Shown here piece after piece: positions 14,572 to 41,146 of a stretch of DNA of 64,000 nucleotides. The stretch's first letter is position 1; every line of letters begins with the position of its first letter. The stretch is from Hydrogenothermus marinus (lineage in GTDB: Bacteria > Aquificota > Aquificia > Aquificales > Hydrogenothermaceae), in assembly GCF_003688665.1 (NCBI RefSeq), contig NZ_REFO01000012.1:124001-188000 (forward strand), read 5' to 3'. The notes under the pieces were generated by a model. It was not told the DNA's origin. It worked only from the letters and a program-made list of their open reading frames with translations, and ran no database searches. The translations under genes and the position numbers were made by a program.

Positions 14572-14581
14572 TGAGGAAAAA

Positions 14582-15016: not shown

Positions 15017-15032
15017 AAAGGAGGTTATATTC

Positions 15033-15500: not shown

Positions 15501-15532
15501 TTTATTAAATAAAAAATAAGGAGGAATTTAAA

Positions 15533-15865: not shown

Positions 15866-15878
15866 GAGGAATTTAGTT

Positions 15879-16670
15879 ATGAGAATGAAAAAATTTTTAA
15901 TGGCTTCTGCTATTATTGCTGCTTCTACATCAATGGCAGCAGAAGTAATTTCACCAGAAGACTGGAAACTTTATCAAGAAGGTATTAACCCAGGAGAGAT
16001 TTTTGCAGAAGAAGTAGGTGGGAAATTATTTAATAAACCTATGGGACCTGAAGGTAAATCTTGTGCTTCTTGCCATACTAAAAATGGAGAAGTAGAGGAA
16101 AAAGTGGCAACTGCAGCAGCTTATTATCCAAAATATGACAAATCTTGTGGTAAGGTTATCAATTTAGAGCAAAGAATTCAGCTTTGCCAAGCTAAGTACC
16201 AAAAAGTAAAACCTTTTTCTTTAAAAAGTAAAGAAAATGTTGCATTAACTACATATCTTTACTACTTAGCTGCTGGAACACCTATAAAAATAGATTTATC
16301 TGAACCTCATGTAAAAGAGTATCATGATTATGGAAGATATGTATTTACCTTAAAAAGAGGAAAAAGAAATCTTTCATGTCAGGTTTGTCATGAATTTGCA
16401 GTAGGCCATGTTTTAAGAATGCAACCTCTTTATCCCCTTGGAACACAAACTATAAATGGTTCAAAAGGAAAAGCAAATGCTTCTTTATGGCCAGCATATA
16501 GAATGACAAAAGATAAAGTTTTTACTCTACAACAAAGATTCTTAGGCTGCCAAAAACAAGCAGGTCAGAAAAAATTACCATTAGGTTCAAAGGAAATGGT
16601 AGCTCTTGAAGTTTATATAAAATCATTAGCTAATGGTGTAGAACTAAAAACTCCAGGACTTAGAAGATAA
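15879..16670 (+). CDS. soxA: SoxA, diheme c-type cytochrome of SoxAX
   Basis: Catalyses, with SoxX, oxidative attachment of thiosulfate to SoxY. 263 residues with a signal peptide ending near SMAA. Two heme motifs are present, CASCH (62-66) and CQVCH (167-171), so this is a diheme SoxA. C224 in QQRFLGCQKQ is in the position of the cysteine persulfide heme ligand that forms the active site. GGAGG lies 10 nt upstream of the ATG. The gene is between soxZ and soxB. Confidence 0.93.
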   Translation: MRMKKFLMASAIIAASTSMAAEVISPEDWKLYQEGINPGEIFAEEVGGKLFNKPMGPEGKSCASCHTKNGEVEEKVATAAAYYPKYDKSCGKVINLEQRIQLCQAKYQKVKPFSLKSKENVALTTYLYYLAAGTPIKIDLSEPHVKEYHDYGRYVFTLKRGKRNLSCQVCHEFAVGHVLRMQPLYPLGTQTINGSKGKANASLWPAYRMTKDKVFTLQQRFLGCQKQAGQKKLPLGSKEMVALEVYIKSLANGVELKTPGLRR

Positions 16671-16684
16671 TTAGGAGGTAATTT

Positions 16685-18424
16685 ATGAACCTTACAAGAA
16701 GAGACTTTTTAGAACTTGCAGCTATAGCAGGTATATCTTTAACATCAGGAGATGCTTTAGCTAAGCTAAATAATATGTCTCCTGAAGAGTTAATGTCTTT
16801 CAAATCTGTTGGAAATATTACTTTACTTCATATATGTGATATGCATGCTCATTTAAGACCTTTATACTGGAGAGAACCATCAACTTTAGTTTCTCATCCT
16901 AAACTTGTAGGAAAACCTGGATTTTTATGTGGAGAAGCTTATCTCAAATATTACGATATTACTCCTGGAACAATAAGAGCTTATTTTGATACATACTTAG
17001 ATTTTCCAGAACTTGCCCATAAATATGGGAAAATGGGTGGAGTTGCCCATATGGCAACACTTGTTAAACAGATAGTTGCAGAAAGAGGAAAGGATAAAGT
17101 TTTATTTATGGATTCTGGAGATACATGGCAAGGAACAGCTATAGGTTTATTCACTAAAGGAAAAGCTATAGTAGATGCTCAAAACCTACTTGGTATAGAT
17201 ATTATGGTAGGTCATTGGGAGTTTACTTACGGAAAAGAAAGAGTTCTTGAACTTGTAAATAATCATCTAAATGCAGAATTTATAGCTCAAAACATAAAAG
17301 ACTCAATGTGGGAAGAGCTTGTATTTAAACCTTATACTATAAGAGAAGTAAACGGTGTAAAAATAGGAATAATAGGAAATGCTTTCCCATACACACCAAT
17401 AGCAAATCCAAAAGAGTTTGTAAAAGGATGGACTTTTGGTATTCAACCAGAAAGTTTACAGCAATATGTAGATGAGCTTAGAGAAGATAAGAAAGTTGAT
17501 CTTGTAGTTCTTTTATCTCATGATGGTTTTTCTTTAGATCAAGCTTTAGCAAAAATGGTAAATGGAATTGATATTATATTCAGTGGACATACTCATAATC
17601 CAGCTCCAAAACCAATTTTTGTAAATAACACAATGATTGTTATTGCAGGCTCACATGGTAAATATCTTGGAAGATTAGACCTTGATGTAAAAAATGGAAA
17701 AATTAGAAAATACAACTATAAGTTAATTCCTATAGCTTCTAATTTTATAAAACCTGATCCAGAAGTAGAAAAATTTGTTGAAAAAGCATATGAACCTTAT
17801 AAAGACAAATTAGATCAAGTAATAGGAAAAACAGAAACTCTTTTATACAAGAGAGATACATTCTACTCAACATTTGATAGACTCATTGGAGAGGCTATAA
17901 GAGATAGAACAGATGCAGAGATAGTATTTACCCCAGGATATAGATGGGGAACAACTATTTTACCTGGCCAAGATATTACAGTTGATAATGTTTATGAAAT
18001 GACAGCTATTACTTATCCAGATGTTTACACTTTTGAAATGACTGGTGAACAGATAAAAATGATTCTTGAAGATATAGCTGATAATGCATTTAATGAAAAT
18101 CCACTTTATCAACAAGGTGGAGATATGAGTAGGCTTTTAGGTTTAGAATATGAGATTAAACTTGGAGCTCCAAGAGGAAAAAGACTTAGAAATATCAAAG
18201 TAAATGGTAAAGATCTTGATCCAAAAAGATCTTATGTTGTTTCAGCTTGGGGTGGAAACTTATACAGAGTAGGTAAAAATGTAAGACCAGATCATCCCCC
18301 AGTTTATGAAGTTGTAATTGACTACATTAAAAAGCAGAAAATTATAAAAGTTCCTTATGAATCTAATGTAAAAATTCTTGATGTTAAATGTGGATGTCCT
18401 ATGGAAGGTGGAATATGCCCGTAA
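16685..18424 (+). CDS. soxB: SoxB, thiol sulfate hydrolase
   Basis: Dimanganese hydrolase that releases sulfate from SoxY-bound S-sulfonate. 579 residues in two domains of the 5'-nucleotidase type. The N-terminus LTRRDFLELAAIAG is a Tat-type signal. Metal-site motifs are HICDMHAHL (about 49-57), MDSGDTWQGT, GHWEFTYG, LSHDGF and SGHTHNP. The family histidine region, the C-terminal DNVYEMTAITYPDVYTFEMTG and GGDMSRL segments are present. It overlaps the following lipoprotein gene, whose ATG lies 8 bp before the soxB stop. No soxCD follows. Confidence 0.96.
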   Translation: MNLTRRDFLELAAIAGISLTSGDALAKLNNMSPEELMSFKSVGNITLLHICDMHAHLRPLYWREPSTLVSHPKLVGKPGFLCGEAYLKYYDITPGTIRAYFDTYLDFPELAHKYGKMGGVAHMATLVKQIVAERGKDKVLFMDSGDTWQGTAIGLFTKGKAIVDAQNLLGIDIMVGHWEFTYGKERVLELVNNHLNAEFIAQNIKDSMWEELVFKPYTIREVNGVKIGIIGNAFPYTPIANPKEFVKGWTFGIQPESLQQYVDELREDKKVDLVVLLSHDGFSLDQALAKMVNGIDIIFSGHTHNPAPKPIFVNNTMIVIAGSHGKYLGRLDLDVKNGKIRKYNYKLIPIASNFIKPDPEVEKFVEKAYEPYKDKLDQVIGKTETLLYKRDTFYSTFDRLIGEAIRDRTDAEIVFTPGYRWGTTILPGQDITVDNVYEMTAITYPDVYTFEMTGEQIKMILEDIADNAFNENPLYQQGGDMSRLLGLEYEIKLGAPRGKRLRNIKVNGKDLDPKRSYVVSAWGGNLYRVGKNVRPDHPPVYEVVIDYIKKQKIIKVPYESNVKILDVKCGCPMEGGICP

Positions 18425-25688: not shown

Positions 25689-26687
25689 ATGAGAAATTTC
25701 AAAAAATTTTCTCTTTCTGTAGCAGCAGGATTAGCAGCATCAGCAGGTATTGCTTTAGCAGCAGATAAACCTGCAAACCCTAATATGCTCATATGGGTTG
25801 ATGATGCGAAAAAAGTTTTCGATTCAAAAGGAGCAGTTTTTGTAAGTGGAGATTCAGACAAAATGTTCAAACAAGGTCATATTCCAGGTTCAGCACATGC
25901 ATTTGCTCATGATTTACACCTTTTAAATGATATTAAAAAATGTAATGGTCTTCCAATGTGTAAAGAAAGAGCTGAAAAATTCATTGGTAGTCTTGGGATA
26001 GATAATAATACAAAAGTAATAGCTTATGATGATGGTAGAGGTCCTAACGCATCTGGTGTATGGTATTTCTTATGGCTCTATGGTATTGATGGTTTAAACG
26101 GACAAAATAGAATGATGGATGGTGGATTCAAAACTTGGGAGAAAAAAGGATATCCAGTAGAAACTGGTGAAGGTTCTAAACCTGCACCTAAAACTTTTAA
26201 AGCTAACATAAATTGGGATATCTTAGCTACAAAAGAAGAAGTTTTAAAAGCAGTAGAAGATATTAAGAAAAATGGTAAAAAATCAAAATATTTCATACTT
26301 GATGCAAGAAGATTCAATGAATATGTTGGAAAGGCTCAACTTGAAGCTCTTGCAGAACCTGGAAAACATGAAAAAGTTAAAAGAGGTGGACATATCCCAG
26401 GAGCAGTATTCTTTGAATGGAAAAAAGTTGCAGGTAATGCAAATGGTAAACCTGGAAAACATTTATTCAAAAAAGTTAAAAAACTTAAAAAAGTATTCTA
26501 CAAAAAGCTAAAGAAGAAAGGATTTGACCCTGAAACAGATACACTTATTACATATTGTCACGTAGGAACAGGTAGAGGTTCATTCATATTTGCAGCTGCT
26601 AAATATATTGGTATAAAAAATGCTAAAGTTTATATTGGTTCATGGGATGAATGGGGTAATGATCCTTCTTTACCAATTGCAAAATAA
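25689..26687 (+). CDS. Exported tandem-domain rhodanese (thiosulfate/3-mercaptopyruvate sulfurtransferase type)
   Basis: Sulfurtransferase of 332 residues with a signal peptide (KKFSLSVAAGLAASAGIALAAD), so it acts in the periplasm. Two rhodanese domains are present: an inactive N-terminal one (about 34-158) and a catalytic C-terminal one (from about 180). The active-site loop is TYCHVGTGRGS with C290. HIPGSAH and HIPGAVFFEW mark the two domains. It forms or transfers persulfides from thiosulfate or polysulfide. AAGGAGG precedes the ATG. First gene of the molybdoenzyme operon, separated from the YeeE gene by a hairpin that may lower downstream expression. Confidence 0.9.
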   Translation: MRNFKKFSLSVAAGLAASAGIALAADKPANPNMLIWVDDAKKVFDSKGAVFVSGDSDKMFKQGHIPGSAHAFAHDLHLLNDIKKCNGLPMCKERAEKFIGSLGIDNNTKVIAYDDGRGPNASGVWYFLWLYGIDGLNGQNRMMDGGFKTWEKKGYPVETGEGSKPAPKTFKANINWDILATKEEVLKAVEDIKKNGKKSKYFILDARRFNEYVGKAQLEALAEPGKHEKVKRGGHIPGAVFFEWKKVAGNANGKPGKHLFKKVKKLKKVFYKKLKKKGFDPETDTLITYCHVGTGRGSFIFAAAKYIGIKNAKVYIGSWDEWGNDPSLPIAK

Positions 26688-26735: not shown

Positions 26736-27854
26736 ATGGAATATATGCATCCTTTAATAATGGGTCTAATCACAGGAGCCTTATTTGGTATTGTTCTTCA
26801 TAAAGTTGGAGCTATTAGATACTCAAGGGTTGAAGGTCTTTTACTTCTTAGAGATTTAAAAATAATGAAATTTGCATTTACTGCTATTGCAACTGCTTCT
26901 ATTATTTATGGACTTGTTGATATTTTTGGACTTGCTGAACAAACAAATATAATCCCAAGGATTATGCCATTTATGGGTATTGCTCACCTTGTTGGTGGAT
27001 TTTTATTTGGTATTTCTATGGGAGCAGCAGGATTTTGTCCTGGTACTTGTGTTGCAAGAGTAGGAGCAGGTAAGTTTATAGCTATTGGTGGAGTAATAGG
27101 TTTAATATTAGGTATTGTACTTTATAGTATGACTCAACCAGCTCTTGTAGAAGCAGGAATCCTTGGAACTAAAGAAAAATTAACTCTTTACGGACTTTTA
27201 GGTGTTCCATATGGTACTTTAGCAGTAGCTTGGGGCACTTTATTCTTAATATTTGCCCTTATAGCAAACTGGCTTGATCCTGCTAAAAAATTTGAAGAAG
27301 GTAAACCTTTCCTTTCAATAAAAGAAGAATGGCACTGGCTTCCATCTGGAATAGCTGCTGGATTAATAATTACATGGGCAACTGCTCAAGGGGAATATCT
27401 TGGATTTTCTGGAGCTACACTTGCTCTGGTTGGATGGATATCTCATGCAATAGGGCATCCTTTAGCTGTAGTTCCTAGAATTAATGAAGGAATTATTTGG
27501 CATGCAGGATTAATTATAGGTGTTTTGCCGGGAGCATTTTTAAGTGCAATAATATCAAGAACATTCAAATTTGATGTTGTTCCACCTTCTTTTGCAGAAA
27601 CAGTTACTCCAATTCCATGGGTAAGAATACTTCTTGTATTCTTTGCAGGAATCGGTCTTGCATATGGTGCTATGATTGGTGGTGGATGTACAACAGGTGC
27701 ATTCATATCTGCATATCCCACTTTATCAATAGGTTCTATGGCAATGAGTGCTACTTACTTTATTGTAGGGATCTTAACAGCACATCTTATTTACTTTGGA
27801 AGATGGAGCAAGTTCTTAGAAACTAAACCTGATGCTGATAAAGTTTATGACTAA
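26736..27854 (+). CDS. YeeE/YedE-family sulfur-compound permease (TsuA-like)
   Basis: Inner-membrane protein of 372 residues with about nine to ten hydrophobic segments. It has the two internal Sul_transp repeats of the family. The cysteines expected to pass thiosulfate sit in GAAGFCPGTC (C101, C105) and IGGGCTTGAF (C318). TsuA of this family imports thiosulfate. Here, beside an exported rhodanese, it probably moves thiosulfate or related sulfane sulfur; direction and substrate are inferred. AAGGAGG precedes the ATG. The next gene, a 43-residue membrane protein, begins 18 bp on. Confidence 0.85.
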   Translation: MEYMHPLIMGLITGALFGIVLHKVGAIRYSRVEGLLLLRDLKIMKFAFTAIATASIIYGLVDIFGLAEQTNIIPRIMPFMGIAHLVGGFLFGISMGAAGFCPGTCVARVGAGKFIAIGGVIGLILGIVLYSMTQPALVEAGILGTKEKLTLYGLLGVPYGTLAVAWGTLFLIFALIANWLDPAKKFEEGKPFLSIKEEWHWLPSGIAAGLIITWATAQGEYLGFSGATLALVGWISHAIGHPLAVVPRINEGIIWHAGLIIGVLPGAFLSAIISRTFKFDVVPPSFAETVTPIPWVRILLVFFAGIGLAYGAMIGGGCTTGAFISAYPTLSIGSMAMSATYFIVGILTAHLIYFGRWSKFLETKPDADKVYD

Positions 27855-27872: not shown

Positions 27873-28004
27873 ATGAGCAATATAGAAAGATTTTTATACT
27901 GGATAGCAATAGTTGTATTAATAGTGGCAATAATTGGAGTTAAAGGAAATATCTCAAAATTAGAACAGGTAGCTACTCAAGTTTCATCACAAGTGGAGGA
28001 ATAA
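27873..28004 (+). CDS. Small single-pass membrane protein, 43 residues
   Basis: A short open frame with AGAGGTGAG upstream and tight spacing on both sides (18 bp after the permease, 3 bp before the next gene). One hydrophobic segment (YWIAIVVLIVAIIGV) is followed by a polar tail (SKLEQVATQVSSQVEE) that could be amphipathic. No family is recognised. The position and ribosome site make it a credible gene. It may be a subunit or stabiliser of the permease or the anchored rhodanese. Confidence 0.7.
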   Translation: MSNIERFLYWIAIVVLIVAIIGVKGNISKLEQVATQVSSQVEE

Positions 28005-28007
28005 AAA

Positions 28008-28508
28008 ATGAATCCAAAAGTAGAGCGTGCTATTTATATAGGAATAATTTTTGTGCTTGCAATAATACTGGTAAGTTTTGGAAAAAAACAAACTGAGCTT
28101 CAAGCTAGTATTCCTCTTACAGTTGAACAACTTTATAAAAAGTTACAAAATCCAAAATTAAATATACAGATTATTGATGTTAGACCTTATGAACCTTCAG
28201 AAGAAGAAGAGGATGATGCTGAAGATTATGAGTTTTATACATTAACTCATATTCCAGGAGCTATACCTTTACCTGATTGTGATGAAAGTAAAGCACCAAA
28301 GGAAGCTTTAGACCATATAAACTACTATTTACCAACAGTTATTGTTTCAAAAGAAGGAGATCCTAAAATTTTTGAAAAGTGTAAAAAGAAATTTAAGATA
28401 TCTCAGAACTTAGCTGGTGGTATGCAAGCTTGGAATGACGCAGGATATCCAACAGAAGAAGATGAATATGTACCTCCAAAAGCTGGTGGTGGTGGAGGTT
28501 GTTTATAA
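28008..28508 (+). CDS. Membrane-anchored, catalytically dead rhodanese with C-terminal GGGGGCL tail
   Basis: 166 residues. Residues 8-24 form an N-terminal membrane anchor (no cleavage site seen), leaving a periplasmic rhodanese domain: IIDVRPYEPSEEEEDD (57-70), HIPGAIPLP (81-89), AGGMQAWNDAGYP (136-148). At the active-site loop the sequence is VIVSKEGDP, with S114 where the catalytic cysteine should be, so classic sulfurtransfer is unlikely. The C-terminus is an acidic linker and PPKAGGGGGCL, placing C165 on a flexible glycine arm. This recalls the SoxY GGCGG carrier arm. Following genes encode a molybdoenzyme. A carrier role is inferred. Confidence 0.8.
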   Translation: MNPKVERAIYIGIIFVLAIILVSFGKKQTELQASIPLTVEQLYKKLQNPKLNIQIIDVRPYEPSEEEEDDAEDYEFYTLTHIPGAIPLPDCDESKAPKEALDHINYYLPTVIVSKEGDPKIFEKCKKKFKISQNLAGGMQAWNDAGYPTEEDEYVPPKAGGGGGCL

Positions 28509-28587: not shown

Positions 28588-31547
28588 ATGGCCTTATCAA
28601 GAAGAAACTTTTTAAAAGCTCTTAGCATAACAGGAGCAGGCCTTACAGTAGGTGGCAATGCTGCCTTTGCAAAAGATAAAGCTCTTATAGTAGAAGATCC
28701 TAGAGCTTCTTATCCTAATAGCTCTTTTGTTGAAAATATGTATAGAAAAGAGTTTGCTTATACTTATGGGAAAAAAGAGGAGCATGGAACAGCTTATCAC
28801 TGTGTTAACTGTCAGGGTAATTGTGCTTGGGATGTATGGGTTGATAATGGAATAGTTACAAGAGAAAACCAAGTAGCAAACTATCCACAAATCAATGCAA
28901 AAATACCTGACTTTAACCCAAGAGGTTGTAATAAAGGGGTTCAACACTCACAAATAATGTATGAAAAGGATAGAATCTTATATCCTCTTAAGAGAGTTGG
29001 TAAAAGAGGAGAAGGTAAATGGAAAAGAATTACATGGGATGAAGCTATTACAGAAATAGCAGAAAATATTTACAATACACAGAAATAGCAGAAAATATTT
29101 ACAATACTATGTTAACTAAAGGACCAGAAGGTCTCTATGTTCACGTTGGTGCAGGAATGCTTACTGAAGCAAGAGCAGCATCAGGTAAAAGACTTGGAAC
29201 ACAGCTTGGAGCACAAAGACCATACATAGCATCTTATGTTGGTGATATGTTTGCGGGTGTTACAGTTGTTTATGGTGAAGGTAATGTAGGATGTACTTGG
29301 GATTATTACTATACTGTTAATACTCAAGTTTGGTGGGGAATGAACCCTAATACTTCAAGAATCCCTGATGCTCACTTTGTATGGGAAGGTAAATATAATG
29401 GTGCTAAAGTAATAGTTATATCTCCTGAATTTAACTCAACAGCTATACACGCTGATTTATGGATTCCTGTAAAAGCAGGATATGATGCACATCTTGCAAT
29501 GGCTGTAATTGATGAAATTATCCAAAATAAACTATACAAACCGGAGTTTGTAAAACATTTCACAGATTTACCATTCTTAGTAAGACTTGATAACAAAAAA
29601 TTATTAAGACTTTCTGATATAGATGTAGAAAATCCACCTGCTGAGCTTGATGAAGAAGTATATAAAACATTTGAAGATCATGCAGAAGGTGGAGAGTTTG
29701 AACCAGAAAGTTGTTTCTTCTCTTGGAATACAAAAACAAATAAATTAACAATTATGCCTGGAACAGAAGGAAATCCTGTAAAAACTTTAAGACTTCATGA
29801 TGTAGCTTGGGATATAGATCCAGCTCTTGAAGGAACTTGGGAAGTTACATTAAAAGATGGTAGCAAAATAAAAGTAACAACAGTATTTGAACTTCTTAAA
29901 AAAGAAGCAAGAAAATTTAGCAAAGAAAAAATATGGAAAATAACAGGTGTTCATCCAAAAATGGTTGAACAACTTGCAAGAGATATAGCTCTTCCAAAAG
30001 TTGTTCAAATTACAGTAGGTTTCTCCCTTGGAAAATACTTTAATGGTGTATTAACTCATAGAGCTATAGCTTCAATCCCTGGATTAACAGGAAGACTTGG
30101 ACCATTTGGTGGCTTATCAACAGAAAATGAAGTTGCTATATCTGGAATGGGTAAACTTTCTGGATTTGCAGGCAAATACAAACAAAGATTTGCATCTGGT
30201 TTTGTAAGTGAGTTTGTTTATGGAAACTTGCTTGAAGATGCAGAAAAACTTTATGATGATGAAGATGTAAGAAGAGCAACAGGTCTTTCAAAAGAAGAAT
30301 ATTTCAAAAGAGTTAGAGAGATACTTGACAACTTTGGAAATGATGAAAAATGGAAAGAAAATTTACATGAAAAAGATGGAAAACCTTACTGGGATACATT
30401 TGAAACTGTTTTACTTTTTGCAGATTCAAGATTTAGAAGAAATAAAGGTATGACTTATAAAAAAGCATTCCTTGAAAGAGCTAAATTCTTTGCTTATGTT
30501 GACTTTAGAATGAACTCTACAGCACAATATGCAGATATAGTTTTACCAGCTAAATCTCATTATGAAGTATGGGACTTAAGAACAAACCCTGGATACCATA
30601 GATTTGCAAATTTAGCACAACCACCTGCAAATTTAAAACCAGTTGGAGAATCAAAATCAGAATGGGAAATATGTACATTAATCGCAGAAAAACTACAGGA
30701 AATTGCCCTCAAAAGATTTGAAGAAGCTAAGAAAAAAGGAGAACCAAATCCTGAAAAATATATAAAAATACCAGATCCTACTCACTCAAAAACTGGATAT
30801 AGAGACCTTGCAAACTTTGTAAAAGAGTTTACACAAGATGGAAAAGTTAGAACAGATAAAGATGCAGTTGAATTTGCTCTTGAAAATGTTGAACAGTTCC
30901 AACCTAATACTATTGAGTCAATGAGAAAAAGAGGTGGATTCCTTGTTTTAAACGAAAAAGCAGGAAAATCTTCTCCACTCTATCCAGATAAACCTTATAA
31001 CTCATTTGAAAATAACTTATATATGTTTGAAAGATTTGAAACATTATCAGGAAGACTTACTTACTATGTAGATCATCCAATTTGGATAGAACTTGGCGCT
31101 GCTGTACCTACTGCAAAAGATCCTATAAGACCTAAGAGATTTCCATTTGTATTAATGACTCCTCACGCAAGATGGTCAATTCACTCTACATATAAAACAT
31201 CTACACTCTTACTTAGACTTCAAAGAGGAAAACCTTATGTAATGATTAACCCTGAAATTGCTAAGAAAAAAGGAATTAAAGATGGTGATGAAGTAAGAGT
31301 ATTTAATGATCTTGGGGACTTCTATGCAATGGCAAAACTTTATCCATCAGCTCCTAAGGATGCAATTCTATTAGAGCATGGATGGGAACCTTTAATGTTT
31401 AAATTCAATAGAAACCATAATGCAGTAGTTGGTGATCTACTCAACCTCCTGGAACTTTCAGATGGTTGGGGACATCTTAAATTTGGTGGAAACTGGGATG
31501 GTAACCAACATGCTTATACTACTTCAGTAGATATAGAAAAAGCTTAA
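28588..31547 (+). pseudogene. Type II DMSO-reductase-family molybdenum catalytic subunit, interrupted by a 29-bp duplication
   Basis: Exported Mo-bisMGD subunit. The N-terminus LSRRNFLKALSITG is a Tat signal. The FS0 cluster is of the NarG/SerA/EbdA type: H71-x3-C75-x3-C79 and C114 (HCVNCQGNC ... NPRGC). TWDYYY near 29300 may hold the aspartate Mo ligand; this is inferred. As sequenced the frame from 28588 stops at 29088 inside a second copy of a 29-bp direct repeat. The rest (from ATG 29109) is open to 31547. Removing one copy restores 976 residues. FeS and heme subunits follow. Relatives act on nitrate, selenate, chlorate, DMS or ethylbenzene; rhodanese and YeeE neighbours suggest a sulfur substrate here. 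Could be a real mutation or an assembly error. Confidence 0.85.
29050..29107 (+). repeat. Perfect 29-bp tandem duplication
   Basis: Bases 29050-29078 and 29079-29107 are identical with no gap. Each unit begins ACAGAAATAGCAG and ends TTTACAATAC. Because 29 is not a multiple of three, the duplication shifts the reading frame of the molybdoenzyme gene; deleting either copy restores one continuous frame. No other signs of decay appear in the gene. Confidence 0.97.
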
Positions 31548-31565: not shown

Positions 31566-32702
31566 ATGTCAAAAAGACAACTTGCAATGGTAATGGATTT
31601 AAATAAATGTATAGGTTGTCAAACTTGTACAGTAGCATGTAAGACTCAATGGACAAATAGAAATGGTAGAGAATATATGTACTGGAACAATGTTGAAACT
31701 CAACCAGGAGCAGGATATCCAAGAAACTGGATGGAAGCAGGTGGTGGATTTGATGAAAATGGAAACCTTCAAGATGGTATAATCCCAGATATGGTACTTG
31801 ATTATGGAGTACCTTGGGATTATAACCATGATGAACTTTTTGGAAATGCTGATACTGATATTTTACAACCTGATTCAGATCCAGTATGGGGGCCAAACTG
31901 GGATGAAGATGTAGGTGCTGGAGATTGGCCAAACTCATACTACTTCTATTTACCAAGAATATGTAATCATTGTTCAAACCCAGGATGTCTCGCAGCTTGT
32001 CCAAGGGATGCAATATTTAAAAGAGAGCAAGACGGTATAGTTCTTGTTGACCTTGATAGATGTCAAGGATATAGATACTGTATAGCAGGATGTCCTTACA
32101 AAAAAATCTATTTCAATCCTAAACTTTCTAAATCAGAAAAATGTATATTCTGTTTCCCAAGAATTGAAAGAGGACTTCCTCCAGCATGTGCTCATCAATG
32201 TGTAGGAAGAATTAGATTTGTAGGATTCTTAGATGATGAAGAATCACAAGTTTATAAACTTGTTCATAAATATAAAGTAGCATTACCTTTAAGACCAGAT
32301 TTTGGAACACAACCTAATGTATACTATGTGCCACCAGTACTTGCACCTCCTCAAATAGATGAAAGTGGAGCTCCTATTGAAGGTTCAGAAAGAATACCTA
32401 TGGAATTCTTAGAAAAATTATTTGGACCAGGAGTTCATGAAGCAGCTAAAACTTTAAAAGCTGAAATGGAAAAAAGAAAAAGAGGCGAAGAATCTGAATT
32501 AATGGATATCCTTATAGCTTATAATCACAAAGATATGTTTAGACTTGATGAGAACTACTATCAAGAATTAGCAAAAGAACAAGGATTAAAAGGAACAGAG
32601 TTCTTCAAAATAATAGATTACAGATATGTTCAAGGTGCGAATACACCAAAAATGGAAGTAAAAGCATATTTTGATGTTAAAGAGAGTTCTCACGAGGGGT
32701 AA
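31566..32702 (+). CDS. Iron-sulfur (beta) subunit of the type II molybdoenzyme
   Basis: Electron-transfer subunit, 378 residues, NarH/SerB/DdhB-like. Four cysteine groups for three 4Fe-4S and one other cluster are present: CIGCQTCTVACK at 17-28, CNHCSNPGCLAACP around 137-150, CQGYRYCIAGCPYKK, and CIFCFPRIERGLPPACAHQCVGR. The third group has Y in a usual cysteine spacing (CQGYRYC), close to the type II pattern where a tryptophan or other residue gives a 3Fe-4S cluster. There is no signal peptide, as expected for co-export with a Tat-bearing partner. AAGGAGG precedes the ATG. It lies 18 bp after the catalytic subunit. Confidence 0.9.
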   Translation: MSKRQLAMVMDLNKCIGCQTCTVACKTQWTNRNGREYMYWNNVETQPGAGYPRNWMEAGGGFDENGNLQDGIIPDMVLDYGVPWDYNHDELFGNADTDILQPDSDPVWGPNWDEDVGAGDWPNSYYFYLPRICNHCSNPGCLAACPRDAIFKREQDGIVLVDLDRCQGYRYCIAGCPYKKIYFNPKLSKSEKCIFCFPRIERGLPPACAHQCVGRIRFVGFLDDEESQVYKLVHKYKVALPLRPDFGTQPNVYYVPPVLAPPQIDESGAPIEGSERIPMEFLEKLFGPGVHEAAKTLKAEMEKRKRGEESELMDILIAYNHKDMFRLDENYYQELAKEQGLKGTEFFKIIDYRYVQGANTPKMEVKAYFDVKESSHEG

Positions 32703-32748: not shown

Positions 32749-33933
32749 ATGAAAAAATGGTTTGCAACTGCCTTATCAGGATTTGCAGCTTTAACTACTG
32801 TAGCTATGGCTTCCGAATATAGTGCATTTTACAAATATGAAGTATTAAATGCTAAAAAGGTTTCTTCTAAGCTTACAGCTGATCCTTCATCATCTGTATG
32901 GAAAACAGTTCCAGGCAAATATGTATATCTATATCCTCAAGTTTCAGTAAGATTAAATGATAAAAAAGCAAACTCTTTAATTCCTAAAAAAAGTTTACAA
33001 AGAGCTTTAGTAAAAGTTGCTTATAATAATGAAGTTTTAGCAGTATATGTTCAATGGAAAGATAATACTCCTTCAACTCAAGCAAAATATAATACTGATA
33101 GCTATGCAGATGGTGTAAGTATTGAAGTGCCAAATAAATTTGGAAGAGGAATTACACTTCCTTATATTGGAATGGGAGATGAAAACCATCCAGTAACTGT
33201 TTATCTCCAAAAAACTGTAGCAGGTAGAGATTATCAAAAAGTATTTGTTTCAGAAGGATTTGGTTCTTTAACAGAGATTAAAGAAGAAGGTTCTGATATA
33301 TCTATGAAATATAATAAACAAAAACATCTTTGGACTGCAGTATTTGTAAGACCTTTAAAAACTGAAAACTCAAATCTTAAAGCAGGTCTTGTACCTATAG
33401 CATTTGCTATATGGGATGGTAAATATATGGAAAGAGATGGAAACAAATCTCTTTCAAGATGGAAATTTATAAGACTTCCAAGTTATAGCCTTGATAAAGA
33501 ATATTTAAAATATGTAGCATGGGGAATACCTTATAAAAGCATAGGAAATCCTGCAAGAGGAAAGCAGTTAATGAAACAAAATGGATGTAATGGATGCCAT
33601 AGATATGATGATCAACAAACAGCACCTCCAGGAATGGCGCCAAACTTATCTGATATTGGTGGAATAGCAAATGCTCCTTATTTAAGAGAATCTATAATAA
33701 ACCCAAGTGATGTTGTAATAAGAAACTTAAATCCAAATAGACATTACAATAAATTTGCTAAACCAGATAAATTTAATGCTTATCCAAATAATGATATGTA
33801 CACTTGGTATACAGTTGGACCTGATGGTAAAAAAATGTCAAAAATGCCTCCATACTCTCATTTATCTGAAAAAGATATTAATGACATAGTTGCATACTTG
33901 AAAAGTTTAAGAAATTGGAAGAATTTTAAGTAA
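32749..33933 (+). CDS. Heme-b (ethylbenzene-dehydrogenase-type gamma) subunit fused to a c-type cytochrome
   Basis: Exported protein of 394 residues; signal peptide ends at VAMASE. Residues about 30-260 match the heme-b-binding gamma subunit of type II enzymes (EB_dh fold): DPSSSVWKTVPGKYVYLYPQ, LVKVAYNNEVLAVYVQWKD, and FAIWDGKYMERDGNKSLSRW. After about residue 270 a c-type cytochrome domain is fused, with CNGCH at 278-282 and candidate distal Met in MSKMPPYSHLS. The fusion would pass electrons from the heme-b directly to a periplasmic cytochrome pool, so no quinone-reactive anchor is needed. AAGGAGG precedes the ATG. Confidence 0.85.
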   Translation: MKKWFATALSGFAALTTVAMASEYSAFYKYEVLNAKKVSSKLTADPSSSVWKTVPGKYVYLYPQVSVRLNDKKANSLIPKKSLQRALVKVAYNNEVLAVYVQWKDNTPSTQAKYNTDSYADGVSIEVPNKFGRGITLPYIGMGDENHPVTVYLQKTVAGRDYQKVFVSEGFGSLTEIKEEGSDISMKYNKQKHLWTAVFVRPLKTENSNLKAGLVPIAFAIWDGKYMERDGNKSLSRWKFIRLPSYSLDKEYLKYVAWGIPYKSIGNPARGKQLMKQNGCNGCHRYDDQQTAPPGMAPNLSDIGGIANAPYLRESIINPSDVVIRNLNPNRHYNKFAKPDKFNAYPNNDMYTWYTVGPDGKKMSKMPPYSHLSEKDINDIVAYLKSLRNWKNFK

Positions 33934-33957: not shown

Positions 33958-34413
33958 ATGAGCTTAAAAAAATTATTGGCTTTATTTTTAGCTATAATAG
34001 CTATATCTGTTTATAATCCTGCAGTTGCTGAAGAAGATGATGAAGATAATGAAATTGATTTAACAAGTGCTGTAATTACTGCAGAGTCTTGTGCTAAAGA
34101 AGCTGAAGAAACTGGAGAATTTTCTGTTCTTTCATCATGTCCACCTCATAAAGCTTTTGAAGGAATTCCTGCAGATAAAATATATACAGCAGCTCCAAAG
34201 GTAGTTGTTTTTGATGTTACAGAAGGAGAATATTACTACGTAAAACCAACAAAAGATGGAGTTACATACTCAGAGCTCCTTGAAGGTTTTGGTGGTACAT
34301 TAGATGGAAGTGGTGTAATAGTTGGTGAAAAAAATGGAATTTCTATAGTTAAGTTTGAAGAGGTAGACATTACTCCTAAACCAAAACCTGGATTCTTTAA
34401 AGGTTGTTTATAA
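33958..34413 (+). CDS. Exported protein of unknown function with C-terminal GCL tail
   Basis: 151 residues with signal peptide ending VAEE. The mature protein starts with an acidic stretch (EEDDEDNEIDL), has a cysteine pair at 45 and 61, and a small beta-rich part (KVVVFDVTEGEYYYVKPT ... GSGVIVGEKNGISIVKFEEV). It ends in a proline/lysine linker and FFKGCL, so C150 is the second-last residue. No family is recognised. The tail matches that of the dead rhodanese upstream (GGGGGCL) and recalls SoxY. It is the last gene of the operon, before a strong terminator, preceded by AGGAGG. A thiol carrier or substrate-presenting role is inferred. Confidence 0.75.
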   Translation: MSLKKLLALFLAIIAISVYNPAVAEEDDEDNEIDLTSAVITAESCAKEAEETGEFSVLSSCPPHKAFEGIPADKIYTAAPKVVVFDVTEGEYYYVKPTKDGVTYSELLEGFGGTLDGSGVIVGEKNGISIVKFEEVDITPKPKPGFFKGCL

Positions 34414-34541: not shown

Positions 34542-35177
34542 ATGAGATTAGGTTTTTTAGTGGATCTTAGCCGATGCATGGGATGTATGGCCTGTGCTGT
34601 ATCATGTAAGGCCGAAAATAATGTTCCTTTGCACAGCTGGAGGCTCAGAGTAAAATACATAGATCAAGGAGAGTTTCCAGAGACCAAAAGACATTTTGTT
34701 CCTTTAAGATGTAATCATTGTGATAATGCTCCTTGTGAAAGAATCTGTCCTGTTTCAGCTCTTCACTATCTACCAAATGGAATTGTTAATGTTGATCATG
34801 AAAGATGTATTGGATGTGCTTCATGTATGATGGCTTGTCCTTATAATGCTATCTATCTTGATCCAATTACAAACTCTGCTGATAAATGTACTTACTGTGC
34901 TCATAGAATAGAAGTTGGTATGATGCCTGCTTGTGTTGTTGCATGTCCAACTCATGCTAATATCTTTGGAGATCTTGATGATCCTGAATCTGAAATTTCT
35001 AAGTACTTACAAGAACACAGAGATGTAATGGTTAGAAAACCAGAGCTTAATACTCATCCTAAGCATTTCTATGTAAGAGGTTCTACAGTAGCTCTTGATC
35101 CTTTAGCTTCAGAAAGACCTGAAGGATATACTTTATTTACAGATGTAGAATTTTTAGATCATATAGGAGGGCATTAA
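34542..35177 (+). CDS. 4Fe-4S electron-transfer subunit of the second molybdoenzyme (PsrB/SreB-like)
   Basis: 211 residues with four 4Fe-4S cysteine groups: CMGCMACAVSCK (12-23), CNHCDNAPCERICP, CIGCASCMMACPYNA and CTYCAHR...CVVACP. This is the DmsB/PsrB/PhsB/TtrB layout. No export signal, consistent with co-export with the Tat-bearing catalytic subunit. It opens an operon ordered B-C-A followed by a TorD chaperone. AGGAGG precedes the ATG. The start of the operon lies 128 bp after the previous gene, beyond a terminator, so it has its own promoter. Confidence 0.9.
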   Translation: MRLGFLVDLSRCMGCMACAVSCKAENNVPLHSWRLRVKYIDQGEFPETKRHFVPLRCNHCDNAPCERICPVSALHYLPNGIVNVDHERCIGCASCMMACPYNAIYLDPITNSADKCTYCAHRIEVGMMPACVVACPTHANIFGDLDDPESEISKYLQEHRDVMVRKPELNTHPKHFYVRGSTVALDPLASERPEGYTLFTDVEFLDHIGGH

Positions 35178-35178
35178 A

Positions 35179-36063
35179 ATGTTAGGAGCAGAAGTAACTT
35201 TTGATGTTGCACTACCTAAGGTAGTGTGGGGATGGCTTGTTTCAACAAATATGTGGGCAAAAAGTATAGCAACAGGAACATTTTTACTTGGACTTTATTT
35301 CATAAAAAAATATCCAGAACAAGATAATTTCTTTAGAAAATGGCTTCCAATACTTGGAATAATATTTATAGGTATTACTCTTTTAGTTACTGTTTTAGAT
35401 TTACACCATATGTTTAGATTTTGGAAAATATTTGTATTTGCACACTTTACTTCAGCAGTTACCTTAGGTGCATGGGTAGTTTCAGCTTTTGTAATTGTTC
35501 TTCTTATAGCATTTTGGTCATGGGTAACTGGAAATAAAAAACTTTTAGATAGAATTATGATTCCTGGATTTATTTTGGCATTTTTTTCAACTATTTATAC
35601 TGCTGGAATAATGGGAGAAGCTACGGCAAGAGAAGTTTGGGTATTTCCTGCTGAAATGATCTCTATGCTTTTAAGTGCAATGATAGCTGGTTCTGCAGCT
35701 TATTTAGTAGTTGATGCAATTTATGGAAATGTTTTAAAAGAAGAAATAAGAAGAGAGCTTGGATATATACTTTTCGGTAGTGCAGGATTAGCAGCTGCAA
35801 TGTTTATTGGAGAGCTTTTCTTTGCAAAAATTCATAGTGAGTTTGCATATAAGACAATAGAAATACTTGCTTTTGGTGATGTTGCTCCATTTTTCTGGGG
35901 TGGAATGTTTTTGACATTTATAATACCGATGGTATTGGTAGGCATAGCAAATGAAAATAAAAAATATCAGTATGCTTTCTTAGGTGCATTAAGTGCAATT
36001 GTAGGACTTTGGCTTATAAAACATGCTTGGTTAATTGCTCCACAATATTTACCATTAAGTTAA
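35179..36063 (+). CDS. NrfD/PsrC-like membrane anchor subunit
   Basis: Integral membrane protein of 294 residues with about eight hydrophobic segments, the NrfD/PolySulfide-reductase-C type that exchanges electrons with quinones. The family feature GTFLLGLYF after the first segment, the VLDLHHMFRFWKIF loop and the region TAGIMGEATAREVW are visible. It begins 1 bp after the FeS subunit stop and is followed by the catalytic subunit, which implies a three-subunit quinone-linked complex on the periplasmic face of the inner membrane. Confidence 0.88.
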   Translation: MLGAEVTFDVALPKVVWGWLVSTNMWAKSIATGTFLLGLYFIKKYPEQDNFFRKWLPILGIIFIGITLLVTVLDLHHMFRFWKIFVFAHFTSAVTLGAWVVSAFVIVLLIAFWSWVTGNKKLLDRIMIPGFILAFFSTIYTAGIMGEATAREVWVFPAEMISMLLSAMIAGSAAYLVVDAIYGNVLKEEIRRELGYILFGSAGLAAAMFIGELFFAKIHSEFAYKTIEILAFGDVAPFFWGGMFLTFIIPMVLVGIANENKKYQYAFLGALSAIVGLWLIKHAWLIAPQYLPLS

Positions 36064-36080
36064 TTAGGAGGGTAGCATAA

Positions 36081-39000
36081 ATGAAGACAACAAGAAGAAA
36101 TTTTCTTAAAACTGTTGCTGCAGCTGTAGGTGGTGCTGCTCTTGTAAAAGGAGCAGTAGAAAAAGCTTCAACAGATGCAGTAGCATCAGAAAATTCAAAT
36201 TTAACTTTTACACCAAAACATTTAGATTATTATCCACCGTTTGATAAGTGGAATGATTGGAAAGAACCTGCAGGAGATGTGTGGAAAGAAAAGGGAGGAG
36301 CTTTAAGAGGTGGTGTAAAGCTTATTAATTACATGATTATTCCTACTGTTTGTTCAAACTGTGAAGCAGCATGTGGTCTTACTGCTTGGGTAGATAAAGA
36401 TAATCTTACAGTTAGAAAATTTATGGGAAACCCTTTCCATACAGGTTCAAGAGGAAGAAATTGTGCTAAAGGATATGCAACTCTTTCTCAGATGTATGAT
36501 CCTGATAGAATTCCTTTCCCACTTAAAAGAGCTCCAGGTTCTAAAAGAGGAGAAGGAAAATGGGTAAGAACAACATGGGATGAGGCTCTTGAAACAATCG
36601 GAAAAAGAATGAGAGAAGTTATTAAAAAAGCTAAAAATGGAAATGAATATGCTAAAAAGATGATAATGTACCATGTTGGAAGACCTAACTATAATGGATT
36701 CCAGCCAAGAGTAGTTTGGTCATGGGGTGGAGATTACCATAACTCTCATACCAACTTCTGTTCTTCAGGAGGAAGACTTGGTTCTATAACTTGGTCAGGT
36801 GATGATAGAACTTCTCCAGATTTTGCTAATTCAAGATTAATATTCTTATCTTCTTCTCATGCTGCAGATGCAGGTCACTATTATCAACAGCACGCAGGTT
36901 ATATAGCAGATGCAAGAGCTAAAGGTGCAAAATTAGTTGTAATGGATCCAAGACTTTCAAACTCTGCAGGTATGGCAGATTTATGGATACCTACATGGCC
37001 TGGTACAGAAGCTGCAGTATTCTTAGCTATGGCAAGCAGATTATTACAAGAAGATAAATATAATAGAAAATTTGTAGAAAGATGGTTTAACTGGAAAACA
37101 TTTATAAAAGATAAAGATTATCTAAACTTCCTTAAAAAAGAAGGTATTATCTCAAAAATACCTGAAGGTGAAACATTTGATGATTTCATATCTGTATTAA
37201 AAGAGATTTATGCACCATATACTTTTGAATGGGCGGCAGAAGAAACAAAAGTACCTGTTGAAAAATTAGAAAAACTATATGAAATGATTTTATGGGCAGG
37301 AGATAGAATTACTTCTTACTTCTGGAGAGCTCAAGCTGCTGGAAACCGTGGTGGATGGATGCAGGCAGGAAGAACAGGTAACTTTTTACTTGCATTAACA
37401 GGCTCTATCGGAGGAGTTGGTGGAACAGGATGGCACCACTGGCATGGACTTGGTGTAGGTAATAATGGTGGAGCTTCAACATTAGCAGATAAACCTGAAC
37501 CTGTAGATGCTTGGAGTGAGTTATTATGGCCTCCAGAATGGCCTATATCATCTTATGAACTTAGTATAATCCTACCTCATTTACTTTCTGATGAAGAATG
37601 GAGAAAGAAATGGGAAGCAAGAGGGTTAAAAATACCAAATAAAATAGAAGTTTGGTTTGGTAGAATATATAATCCAGTTTGGACAAATCCAGATGGATTT
37701 AGATGGATAGAAACTTTAACAGATGAAAATAAATTTGGTTTAACAGTTCATCTATCTCCAACATGGTCTGAAACAAGCTGGTTTGTTGATTATATCCTTC
37801 CTGTTGGACTTGCAGGTGAAAGACATGATAATCAAACAGCAGAAACAAAACCTGAAAGATGGACAGCATTTAGACAACCTGTATTAAGAGTAGCATTACA
37901 GAAATTAGGTTGGAAACCTCAAAATCCTGCAAGAGCAACATTAGAGGCTCATAAAAAAGCTGGACTTGGTGAAGTTTGGGAAGATGATGAGTTTTGGATA
38001 AATCTTGCATGGGCTATAGATCCAGATGGAAGTCTTGGAATTAGAAAATACTGGGAATCTAAGAAAAATCCAGGACAACCTGTAACTGTAGAAGAATGGT
38101 ACAATGCGGCATTTAGCACAATACCAGGGCTTAAGAAAATATGTGAAAAAATGGGAATTACTCCTTATGAATATATGAGAGATAGAGGTGCTTGGACAGA
38201 AGAAACAAATGTTTATAATGTAATGGATAGAGAAGTTCCTTATGATCCTGTGAAAAATGCAATAAAAGTAAAAGGAAAATGGATACCACTTTCAGAATGT
38301 GATATAGATGAAAATGGTGCAGTATTCTTAAAACATAATAATGCTAAAGAATATCACTCTGAAAGACATATATTAGCAGTTAAAAAAGATGGTAAATTTG
38401 TAAAAGGATTCCATACTCCAACAGGTCATCTTGAGTTCTACTCAAAAACACTTGTTGAGTTTAAATGGCCTGAATATGCAATTCCAATATATCCAAGAAC
38501 AGATGAGCAAAGAAGAAAATGGATACATATACTCTCTCATGTTCACCATTCATATATGAAAGAAGATAATGCATTCTGTTTAAATCCAATATTTAGACTT
38601 CCTTATAACATTCACACAAGATCTGTAAATGCAAAATGGTTAATGGAAATATCTCAAAACCATAACCCTGTATGGATATATGAAGGTGATGCAAAAAGAC
38701 TTGGAATTAAAAGAGGAGATCCTATTAAATTAAGAGTAATAGATACTTTAACAGGAATAGAAACAGGATACTTTGTAGGAATGGCAATGCCAACTCAGGC
38801 AGTTAGACCTGGAGTTGTAGCTTGTTCTCACCACCAAGGAAGATGGAGAGTTAAAAACTTTGTAAATGTAGAAGGATTTGATCAACCTCTTGGAATTATG
38901 ACATTTGGTTCTACAAGAGTAGATATTCAAAGACAAGGAAATACATGGAGTATGAGAACTGTAGAAGGAACTCTTCCAAGAGAAGTGGAAATTAAACATA

Positions 39001-39368
39001 AAGACAAAAACCTACAATGGCCATATCCAGAATTTAACAAAGATATTAAAGATGTGTGGTGGAAAGGAACAACAGGTGTATGGCAAAATGCAGTATTCCC
39101 ACCAAACCCTGATCCACTTTCAGGAATGCAGTGCTGGCATAAGAAAGTATTAATAGAAAAAGCAGGACCAGATGATAAAATTGGAGATGTTGTAGTAAAT
39201 ACAGATGCAACATTTAAAGTATTCCAAGCATGGAGAGACCAACTTACAAGACCAGCTCCAGGACCAAATGGATTAAGAAGACCTAAATGGATGCCAAGAC
39301 CATGGTATCCACATACAGATAGTTCATATAGAATGCCAGGTACTGGACATTCAAGTCATGAAGGATAA
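36081..39368 (+). CDS. Molybdopterin catalytic subunit of a CISM complex (sulfur/tetrathionate/sulfite type)
   Basis: Large Mo-bisMGD oxidoreductase, 1095 residues. The N-terminus MKTTRRNFLKTVAAAVGG is a Tat signal, so the enzyme faces the periplasm. FS0 ligands are CSNCEAAC at 91-98 plus C128 in GRNCAKG (Cx2Cx3CxnC, the PsrA/PhsA/TtrA group, unlike the His-type FS0 of the other enzyme). C227 in HTNFCSSGGR is the likely Mo ligand. Later motifs VVMDPRLSNSAGMADLWIPTWPGTEAA and the C-terminal beta-barrel fit the superfamily. Neighbours suggest polysulfide, tetrathionate, thiosulfate or sulfite as substrate; SreA, TtrA and SoeA are all possible. Arsenic oxyanions cannot be excluded. Confidence 0.85.
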   Translation: MKTTRRNFLKTVAAAVGGAALVKGAVEKASTDAVASENSNLTFTPKHLDYYPPFDKWNDWKEPAGDVWKEKGGALRGGVKLINYMIIPTVCSNCEAACGLTAWVDKDNLTVRKFMGNPFHTGSRGRNCAKGYATLSQMYDPDRIPFPLKRAPGSKRGEGKWVRTTWDEALETIGKRMREVIKKAKNGNEYAKKMIMYHVGRPNYNGFQPRVVWSWGGDYHNSHTNFCSSGGRLGSITWSGDDRTSPDFANSRLIFLSSSHAADAGHYYQQHAGYIADARAKGAKLVVMDPRLSNSAGMADLWIPTWPGTEAAVFLAMASRLLQEDKYNRKFVERWFNWKTFIKDKDYLNFLKKEGIISKIPEGETFDDFISVLKEIYAPYTFEWAAEETKVPVEKLEKLYEMILWAGDRITSYFWRAQAAGNRGGWMQAGRTGNFLLALTGSIGGVGGTGWHHWHGLGVGNNGGASTLADKPEPVDAWSELLWPPEWPISSYELSIILPHLLSDEEWRKKWEARGLKIPNKIEVWFGRIYNPVWTNPDGFRWIETLTDENKFGLTVHLSPTWSETSWFVDYILPVGLAGERHDNQTAETKPERWTAFRQPVLRVALQKLGWKPQNPARATLEAHKKAGLGEVWEDDEFWINLAWAIDPDGSLGIRKYWESKKNPGQPVTVEEWYNAAFSTIPGLKKICEKMGITPYEYMRDRGAWTEETNVYNVMDREVPYDPVKNAIKVKGKWIPLSECDIDENGAVFLKHNNAKEYHSERHILAVKKDGKFVKGFHTPTGHLEFYSKTLVEFKWPEYAIPIYPRTDEQRRKWIHILSHVHHSYMKEDNAFCLNPIFRLPYNIHTRSVNAKWLMEISQNHNPVWIYEGDAKRLGIKRGDPIKLRVIDTLTGIETGYFVGMAMPTQAVRPGVVACSHHQGRWRVKNFVNVEGFDQPLGIMTFGSTRVDIQRQGNTWSMRTVEGTLPREVEIKHKDKNLQWPYPEFNKDIKDVWWKGTTGVWQNAVFPPNPDPLSGMQCWHKKVLIEKAGPDDKIGDVVVNTDATFKVFQAWRDQLTRPAPGPNGLRRPKWMPRPWYPHTDSSYRMPGTGHSSHEG

Positions 39369-39374
39369 ATTTTA

Positions 39375-39400
39375 TAAGGAGGCTTTTGCCTCCTTAATTT
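39375..39400 (+). terminator. Hairpin after the molybdoenzyme catalytic gene
   Basis: TAAGGAGGC, loop TTTT, GCCTCCTTA, then ATTT. A perfect 9-bp stem 18 bp before the TorD gene; the short T tract makes it a partial terminator or stability hairpin. Confidence 0.6.
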
Positions 39401-39417
39401 AATAAAGAGGTAAAACA

Positions 39418-40056
39418 ATGGAAAATATTATTGATATAACTCAAGCAAGAATAAATATGTACGGTTTTTTATCAAGACTTTTCATAGAAGAGATAGATCC
39501 TTTTACTTTGCAAAAAATAAAAGAAAATGAAGATTTACTTGAACTTTTTCCTAATACTAAACAATGGGATAAATTCAAAGAAAAAGATATAATGAAACTT
39601 ATAGAAGAAGATTTAAATGTTGATTATACTACTTTATTTATCTTAAATGTATATCCTTATGAATCTGTATTTGTAAACGATGAAGGACATATTAACCCAA
39701 CAATAACAAATCCAACCCTCGTTTTCTATAGAGAGCATGGTTATGCAATAGACTTAAATAAAACAAGAGCTTTATCTCCTGATCATATAGGTGTAGAACT
39801 TGAGTTTATGATGAACCTAATTCAAGATGAACTAAATGCAATTGCAAGAGAAGATGAAGAAAAAGCTAATGAATATAGAAAAATACAAAAGAAATTTTTA
39901 GAAGAACATCTTGCAAATTGGGGACTTCCTTATTTACTTGCAATAAAGGATATAGCAGAAACACCTTTTTATTATGATGTTGCAGATGCAACATTAGAAT
40001 TTTTAATGTCTGACTTAGAATATTTAAACGAAAAATTAGAATCTCAGGTAAGTTAA
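39418..40056 (+). CDS. TorD/DmsD-family molybdoenzyme chaperone
   Basis: Cytoplasmic all-helical protein of 212 residues that normally binds the Tat signal or apoprotein of a molybdoenzyme until cofactor is inserted. Family features are ARINMYGFLSRLFIEEID at the N-terminus, VYPYESVFVNDEG in the middle, PDHIGVELEFMMNLI with the conserved D-H-x-G/A-x-ELEF motif, and FLEEHLANWGLPYLLAI. It follows the catalytic gene and overlaps none; the next gene begins 1 bp after its stop. Most likely client is the 1095-residue subunit. Confidence 0.9.
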   Translation: MENIIDITQARINMYGFLSRLFIEEIDPFTLQKIKENEDLLELFPNTKQWDKFKEKDIMKLIEEDLNVDYTTLFILNVYPYESVFVNDEGHINPTITNPTLVFYREHGYAIDLNKTRALSPDHIGVELEFMMNLIQDELNAIAREDEEKANEYRKIQKKFLEEHLANWGLPYLLAIKDIAETPFYYDVADATLEFLMSDLEYLNEKLESQVS

Positions 40057-40057
40057 A

Positions 40058-41146
40058 ATGGCAAGATTAAATTTTGATATATATTCTTGTGTTAGAACCT
40101 ATTATAGATTTTCCTCTTGTCAAAAATGTATTGATGTATGCCCAGTAGAAGATGTGCTCTATATAGAAAACGATAAAATTAAAATAAATGAAGAAAAATG
40201 TATATCTTGTGGTGCTTGTGTAGGTGTTTGTCCAACAGAAGCATTTTCATTAAAAGGTTTTGATCTAAAAGAATTTCACCAAAAATTTATAGAAACAGAA
40301 GAACATTTAATCAGTTGTAAATTAAATGTTCCTTGTGTATCTGCAGTAGATAGTCAGTATTTAGTTGCTTTTGTTTTAGAAAAAAATTCAGATATTATTC
40401 TTGATATAGGCCACTGTAGTAGTTGTCAGATAGGAAATTTAAAAGAAAGAATAGAAAATATAGCAAAAGAGGCAAATTATGTTCTTGAGCAGTTAGGTGT
40501 TGAAAATAGAGTAAAACTTGAAGAAATAGCATATGAAAAACCAGAAGAAGAAAAGAAAATAGAAAGTAGAAGAAGTTTCTTAAAAAGATTTACAAAACAA
40601 ACTGCAGGTCTTGCTTTTTGGGCATTAGCTCCTAATATTCCAATAGAAAATGAAGAAAATAATGAAGAAGAAGTAAAAAATTTAGTAGAAGAAAAGGTTG
40701 TTCCATACAAAAGGATAGCTTTTATAAATGCTTTAAAGAACTCAGACATAGATTTTAAAGATAAATATTTAGAAGTAGATAAAATATCTTTTACTTCTGA
40801 AAAATGGATAGACAATAAAAAATGTACTAACTGTTATATCTGTTATCATATGTGTCCAACAGGTGCTTTAAAAGAAGGAAATAATAAACTCTCTATCTTA
40901 TTTGAACCTGCTTTATGCGTAAAATGTAGAATTTGCCATGAAATGTGTCCAGAAGATTGTTTACATTTAGCTGATAAATTAGAGTTTGATACATTTGTAA
41001 ATAAAGTGGAAGTTCTTGCAGAGCATGTAATGATACCTTGTGAAGAATGTATGACTCCTTTTTCATACAAAGGAGATTCAACAATCTGTCCAAGATGTAG
41101 AAAATTAGAAGATGAGATAAAAGATTTACTTAAGATAGGGGACTAA
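40058..41146 (+). CDS. Polyferredoxin-like protein with an internal twin-arginine motif
   Basis: 362 residues in two halves. The N-terminal half has ferredoxin cysteines (CQKCIDVCP at 21-29, CISCGACVGVCP at 48-59) and a further CSSC. The C-terminal half has CTNCYICYHMCP, CVKCRICHEMCP and a rubredoxin-like CEEC...CPRC pair. Between them, residues 170-192 (SRRSFLKRFTKQTAGLAFWAL) look like a Tat signal placed inside the protein, and an acidic linker follows. Either an internal start or cleavage gives an exported C-terminal half, or the motif is an anchor. It follows the TorD gene directly. An electron carrier or maturation role for the second molybdoenzyme is inferred. Confidence 0.75.
   Translation: MARLNFDIYSCVRTYYRFSSCQKCIDVCPVEDVLYIENDKIKINEEKCISCGACVGVCPTEAFSLKGFDLKEFHQKFIETEEHLISCKLNVPCVSAVDSQYLVAFVLEKNSDIILDIGHCSSCQIGNLKERIENIAKEANYVLEQLGVENRVKLEEIAYEKPEEEKKIESRRSFLKRFTKQTAGLAFWALAPNIPIENEENNEEEVKNLVEEKVVPYKRIAFINALKNSDIDFKDKYLEVDKISFTSEKWIDNKKCTNCYICYHMCPTGALKEGNNKLSILFEPALCVKCRICHEMCPEDCLHLADKLEFDTFVNKVEVLAEHVMIPCEECMTPFSYKGDSTICPRCRKLEDEIKDLLKIGD

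Follow-up and report, generated by a model that had tools for sequence, protein, structure and literature searches.

A rhodanese domain without its catalytic cysteine as candidate sulfur carrier for an exported molybdenum enzyme in Hydrogenothermaceae

The window analysed here, a stretch of 64,000 nucleotides from Hydrogenothermus marinus, encodes a small protein, designated RhdX, that raises a mechanistic question: what is the use of a rhodanese domain in which serine stands in the place of the catalytic cysteine, while a different cysteine is presented on a glycine arm at the extreme C-terminus? An earlier note on this DNA had read the protein as a dead, membrane-tethered rhodanese with a SoxY-like cysteine arm, and the features concerned are the following.

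28008–28508, + strand: RhdX, 166 amino acids; membrane-anchored rhodanese domain without catalytic cysteine, C-terminus GGGGGCL
28347–28349, + strand: codon of Ser114, at the rhodanese catalytic-cysteine position according to the alignment to active rhodaneses; invariantly serine
28485–28505, + strand: GGGGGCL tail, with the C165 codon at 28500–28502; invariant as protein, variable in its codons

The rhodanese nature of the protein body is well supported. The Pfam Rhodanese model (PF00581) matches residues 38–144 with E = 9.6e-8, above the gathering score, and it is the one Pfam family matched by the RhdX alignment, in 27 of 27 sequences (that of the window together with 26 orthologues from 9 genera of Hydrogenothermaceae, a family of hot-vent bacteria, 59–83% identical to it). 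A structure model built with this alignment as input (mean pLDDT 83) adopts the rhodanese fold, its best Foldseek matches being rhodaneses (best E = 1.9e-5). By family model and by predicted fold alike, RhdX thus belongs to the rhodanese superfamily, as the earlier note had supposed. It does not qualify as an active rhodanese or sulfurtransferase, which carries a catalytic cysteine in the loop where RhdX has the invariant Ser114. When RhdX is aligned with active single-domain rhodaneses from related genomes, membrane-anchored or secreted (hhalign profile match, probability 98%), its segment VIVSKEGDPK falls gap-free over their IVYC[KR]SGNRS, from which it follows that the arginine and serine of the loop were lost as well as the cysteine. 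The PspE-like single-domain rhodaneses of Hydrogenothermaceae hence share the domain with RhdX, are homologous to it by profile comparison and in several cases have an N-terminal anchor; however, they keep C[KR]SGNRS and have no tail, whereas RhdX has lost the loop Cys, Arg and Ser and gained GGGGGCL. The N-terminal hydrophobic helix of RhdX is a clear membrane tether, again as first noted. Since the charges flanking this helix are ambiguous, the likely periplasmic side of the domain is deduced from the neighbouring genes.

The open reading frame ends PPKAGGGGGCL-stop, and Ser114, the two further cysteines C91 and C125 and all seven residues of the tail are invariant in the 27 aligned sequences, down to 59% identity. 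The tail is spelled in 21 different ways at the DNA level among the 27 genes; with the codons varying while the protein stays fixed, selection acts on the protein. The structure model gives residues 160–166 a pLDDT under 50, as would suit a flexible tail. Homologues lacking the tail cysteine or having an intact active-site cysteine, either of which the earlier note had named as speaking against its reading, were sought among the orthologues, and none was found. Full-length RhdX occurs in 28 of the 61 genomes searched, all from one family, with none in the other families of the order. A profile search of 136 genomes of the phylum added RhdX sequences from Hydrogenothermaceae only, the 95 other Aquificota genomes giving none. 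When about 85,000 species genomes were scanned with patterns from the RhdX protein body, which would miss distant relatives, the matches were confined to Hydrogenothermaceae/Aquificota records (Hydrogenothermaceae, Persephonella, Hydrogenothermus, Sulfurihydrogenibium). RhdX was not found on plasmids, nor was a published description of the system found in the open-licence literature.

The likeness to SoxY proposed in the earlier note holds for the glycine-rich C-terminal cysteine arm but does not extend to homology, and the arm resembles that of DsrC as much. In SoxY, the arm-bound sulfur is oxidised by the molybdenum enzyme SoxCD (PMC5336275); an exported carrier, a cysteine on a glycine-rich C-terminal arm and a cytochrome c-coupled molybdenum enzyme recur here (PMC5336275, PMC6067878), the cargo on RhdX being putative. 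The differences are a rhodanese fold, GGGGGCL instead of GGCGG and a membrane anchor, and on the enzyme side SoxC is of the sulfite oxidase family whereas the enzyme beside RhdX is of the DMSO reductase family. RhdX gave no match to the SoxY model (NCBIfam, E up to 0.01) and is not a member of that family; the true SoxY of the window (15033–15500) scores 157 bits. DsrC/TusE has in common with RhdX a flexible C-terminal arm with a penultimate cysteine, the working cysteine in DsrC, which is persulfidated at that residue only (PMC3397948). It differs from RhdX in its fold, in its cytoplasmic location and in working for DsrAB or in tRNA thiolation; PF00581 is the one family that RhdX matches, without a match to the DsrC/TusE model, so that the penultimate cysteine is the only common element. 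On these comparisons, RhdX probably works like a SoxY/DsrC arm while belonging to neither family.

What such an arm might serve is suggested by the genes around it. Twenty relatives show one fixed order (in one of them, the contig stops just past RhdX): active two-domain sulfurtransferase, TsuA-like transporter, small membrane peptide, RhdX, alpha, beta, gamma and GCL2.

25689–26687, + strand: TST, exported rhodanese of two domains whose catalytic loop reads CHVGTG (PF00581, 3-mercaptopyruvate sulfurtransferase-like); proposed sulfur donor
26736–27854, + strand: TsuA/YeeE-like sulfur transporter (PF04143, E = 2e-28; TsuA model, E = 8e-17, under cut-off)
27873–28004, + strand: 43-amino-acid single-helix membrane peptide, kept in the operon of relatives
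28588–31547, + strand: alpha, putative type II DMSO reductase family member with Tat signal (TIGR03479); split into reading frames 28588–29088 and 29109–31547
31566–32702, + strand: beta, iron-sulfur protein (TIGR03478, over cut-off)
32749–33933, + strand: gamma, heme b domain fused to cytochrome c (TIGR03477 below cut-off; PF09459, PF00034)
33958–34413, + strand: GCL2, secreted protein of no recognised family that invariably ends GFFKGCL, its C150 codon at 34405–34407

The observation of the earlier note thus holds, on firmer ground than it had claimed: RhdX is conserved and keeps constant company with a molybdenum enzyme. Its setting is that expected of a carrier: an invariant cysteine on an arm that is flexible in the model, with sulfurtransferase and oxidoreductase genes adjoining. 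The catalytic cysteine of TST is present in 20 of 20 relatives and the CxxCH of gamma in 19 of 19. For alpha, TIGR03479 is the best-scoring family, yet the score stays below the curated cut-off in all 136 genomes (maximum 841 of 984.75 bits), so the substrate is not readable from homology. The region of the Asp molybdenum ligand and the Fe-S residues are conserved in the relatives, and the Asp-bearing GD motif aligns to both of the closest type II PDB entries, namely 4ydd/5e7o, which we take to be perchlorate reductase, and 2ivf, ethylbenzene dehydrogenase. With the Pcr, Clr and Ebd enzymes of the type II family the system shares the alpha-beta-gamma composition, the Asp-ligand region and a heme b gamma subunit; it differs in an alpha under the TIGR03479 cut-off, in the fusion of gamma to cytochrome c and in the two tail-cysteine proteins alongside.

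The second of these proteins, GCL2, has a signal-like N-terminus, three invariant cysteines and, in the relatives, the invariant C-terminus PKPK[PA]GFFKGCL; searches of Pfam, NCBIfam and Foldseek returned no family and no confident fold match. Downstream of GCL2 lies a second molybdenum enzyme cluster (FeS, NrfD-like, alpha, TorD-like). In one relative (G006), GCL2 follows gamma without that cluster, and it is for this reason assigned to the type II enzyme. A scan of the whole 1.6-Mb genome for Gly-Cys-(Leu/Phe)-stop returned 16 sites, with real reading frames at RhdX and GCL2 only; the idea of a general C-terminal signal was rejected on this ground.

In the mechanism that our analysis supports best, and to which we assign a probability of about one half, RhdX would carry protein-bound sulfur to the exported type II molybdenum oxidoreductase encoded next to it. 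It draws its support from the invariance of the tail and of Ser114, from the flexibility of the tail in the model, and from an operon into which RhdX is locked together with an active sulfurtransferase, a protein resembling thiosulfate transporters and the exported oxidoreductase. GCL2, bearing a -GCL arm of its own in that operon, adds to this, as does the restriction of such endings in the genome to these two real reading frames; the arms of SoxY and DsrC are precedents. TST would draw sulfane sulfur from a compound such as thiosulfate and pass it to RhdX, whose rhodanese fold would be retained merely as a docking body. On the flexible glycine arm, the penultimate residue C165 would hold the sulfur as a persulfide or a sulfonate; the membrane anchor would keep RhdX close to the molybdenum enzyme, and the arm would reach into the active site of alpha, where the sulfur would be converted. 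Beta would pass the electrons on to gamma with its heme b and cytochrome c, and GCL2, acting as a parallel or a product carrier, might offer another such arm. The anatomy of RhdX, its invariance, the fixed gene order and the families of the neighbouring genes are established; the sulfur load on C165, the direction, for which oxidation is preferred, the docking of RhdX and the part played by GCL2 we infer. The molybdenum enzyme as likely client and GCL2 as second arm protein go beyond the earlier note. The ergothioneine molybdenum enzyme, considered as a match, was rejected, for it uses a fused desulfurase domain and not a rhodanese arm (PMC9516567).

Invariant C91 and C125 have no place in this carrier scheme and count against it, as do an alpha whose substrate homology does not reveal and a periplasmic side of RhdX that is deduced from its neighbours. 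Both cysteines figure in the strongest rival, unlikely in our estimate, which assigns a redox or assembly function to the -GCL arms of the two proteins: disulfides joining C165 and C150 to each other, or to C91/C125 and C45/C61, would hold, mature or regulate the molybdenum enzyme, no sulfur substrate being carried. That RhdX and GCL2 each keep two further invariant cysteines, and that both arm genes flank alpha-beta-gamma in all relatives, would suit this proposal; but it leaves the co-conserved active sulfurtransferase and the TsuA-like transporter unexplained, and a five-glycine arm with a penultimate cysteine is the layout of known carriers and not the usual one of structural disulfides.

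A clearly smaller chance is given to the operon handling a non-sulfur oxyanion, such as selenate or chlorate, the rhodanese proteins then dealing with the reduced product or with stress. Alpha is related to perchlorate reductase, and its nearest plasmid relatives are chlorate reductases of about 37% identity; TST weakly matches the selenite/tellurite rhodanese ExtH, and relatives of YeeE/YedE include selenium transporters. Against this stand a best TsuA-family match that is a thiosulfate transporter, the lack of a noticed chlorite dismutase among the neighbouring genes and the near-universal presence of the module in a family of sulfur oxidisers.

RhdX could also be an extra carrier mainly within the Sox pathway, passing on sulfur from SoxY. 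The Sox cluster of the window (14143–18424) comprises the true SoxY, ending IGGCG, SoxZ, a SoxA-like protein and SoxB, without SoxCD. These genes lie 7–11 kb upstream of the operon, and RhdX and SoxB occur together in 18 of 23 high-quality genomes of the family; the association falls short of significance, however (Fisher p = 0.067), and a strict link is therefore unsupported. One genome (G018) has the module with SoxB not found, another (G024) the reverse, and the module is hence not dependent on Sox. With RhdX tied to the alpha operon instead, a role centred on Sox appears improbable. Least credible is removal of the terminal Cys-Leu to expose a poly-glycine end for ThiS/MoaD-like thiocarboxylate activation: RhdX shares a Gly-Gly-Cys-Leu ending with such precursors, QbsE being a ThiS/MoaD-like carrier with a trailing dipeptide, but the RhdX fold is rhodanese and not beta-grasp, the operon showed neither an E1-like gene nor one for a JAMM protease, and GCL2 has a single glycine before its Cys-Leu.

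The carrier role preferred for RhdX can be set in a broader, more tentative frame. SoxC was rejected as the enzyme, there being no match over cut-off in 41 genomes of the family, which leaves the job for another molybdenum enzyme; a relative has likewise been described with Sox but without soxC and soxD (PMC4912159). It is conceivable, if doubtful, that Hydrogenothermaceae possess an undescribed periplasmic sulfur-oxidising system that functionally replaces SoxCD, in which a decommissioned rhodanese and the unrelated GCL2 present sulfur on Gly-Cys-Leu arms to a type II molybdenum enzyme. Were this true, the swinging-arm handling of sulfur known from SoxY, DsrC and LbpA would have re-arisen on a rhodanese scaffold by loss of the catalytic cysteine and gain of a tail cysteine, the substrates of type II molybdenum enzymes would come to include one bound to a protein, and there would be a concrete answer to how a family that runs Sox without SoxCD uses sulfane sulfur. 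C165 and C150 are the two cysteines to target by mutation.

Alpha itself is broken in the window; the relatives' frames are intact.

29050–29107, + strand: alpha reading frame disrupted by a perfect tandem duplication of 29 bp

The duplication may be a lesion or an assembly error. With alpha broken, the system may be inactive in this strain; the stated inability of Hydrogenothermus to use nitrate or sulfur (PMC6775965) would fit, as a correlation only. That the window keeps RhdX despite the broken alpha counts against the carrier reading. In a second genome (G027), the 5' part of alpha is missing, and neither the membrane peptide nor RhdX remains. A third alpha (G109, L106:2-892) has serine in place of the Asp molybdenum ligand and has diverged to about 50–57% identity with the other alphas, whose lowest pairwise identity is 76%; the usual upstream genes including RhdX are absent at that place, in a genome only 70% complete, and the gene may encode an enzyme of changed chemistry or may be decaying. 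Of the three damaged or altered alphas, two thus have no RhdX at the expected position, which speaks for the carrier reading, the window being the exception.

Some minor observations concern the neighbouring genes. The 43-amino-acid peptide directly 5' of RhdX has an ER-aromatic start that resembles the RhdX anchor; the similarity is weak in a shuffle test (mean z 2.6, some pairs below 0), and duplication of the anchor was not retained as its origin. The second exported molybdenum cluster (34542–41146: FeS, NrfD-like, 1095-amino-acid alpha, TorD-like, FeS) scores far below all curated NCBIfam cut-offs. In one genome (G009, L049:10166-13602), TST and RhdX are separated by three TsuA-like genes in a row, where the others have one.
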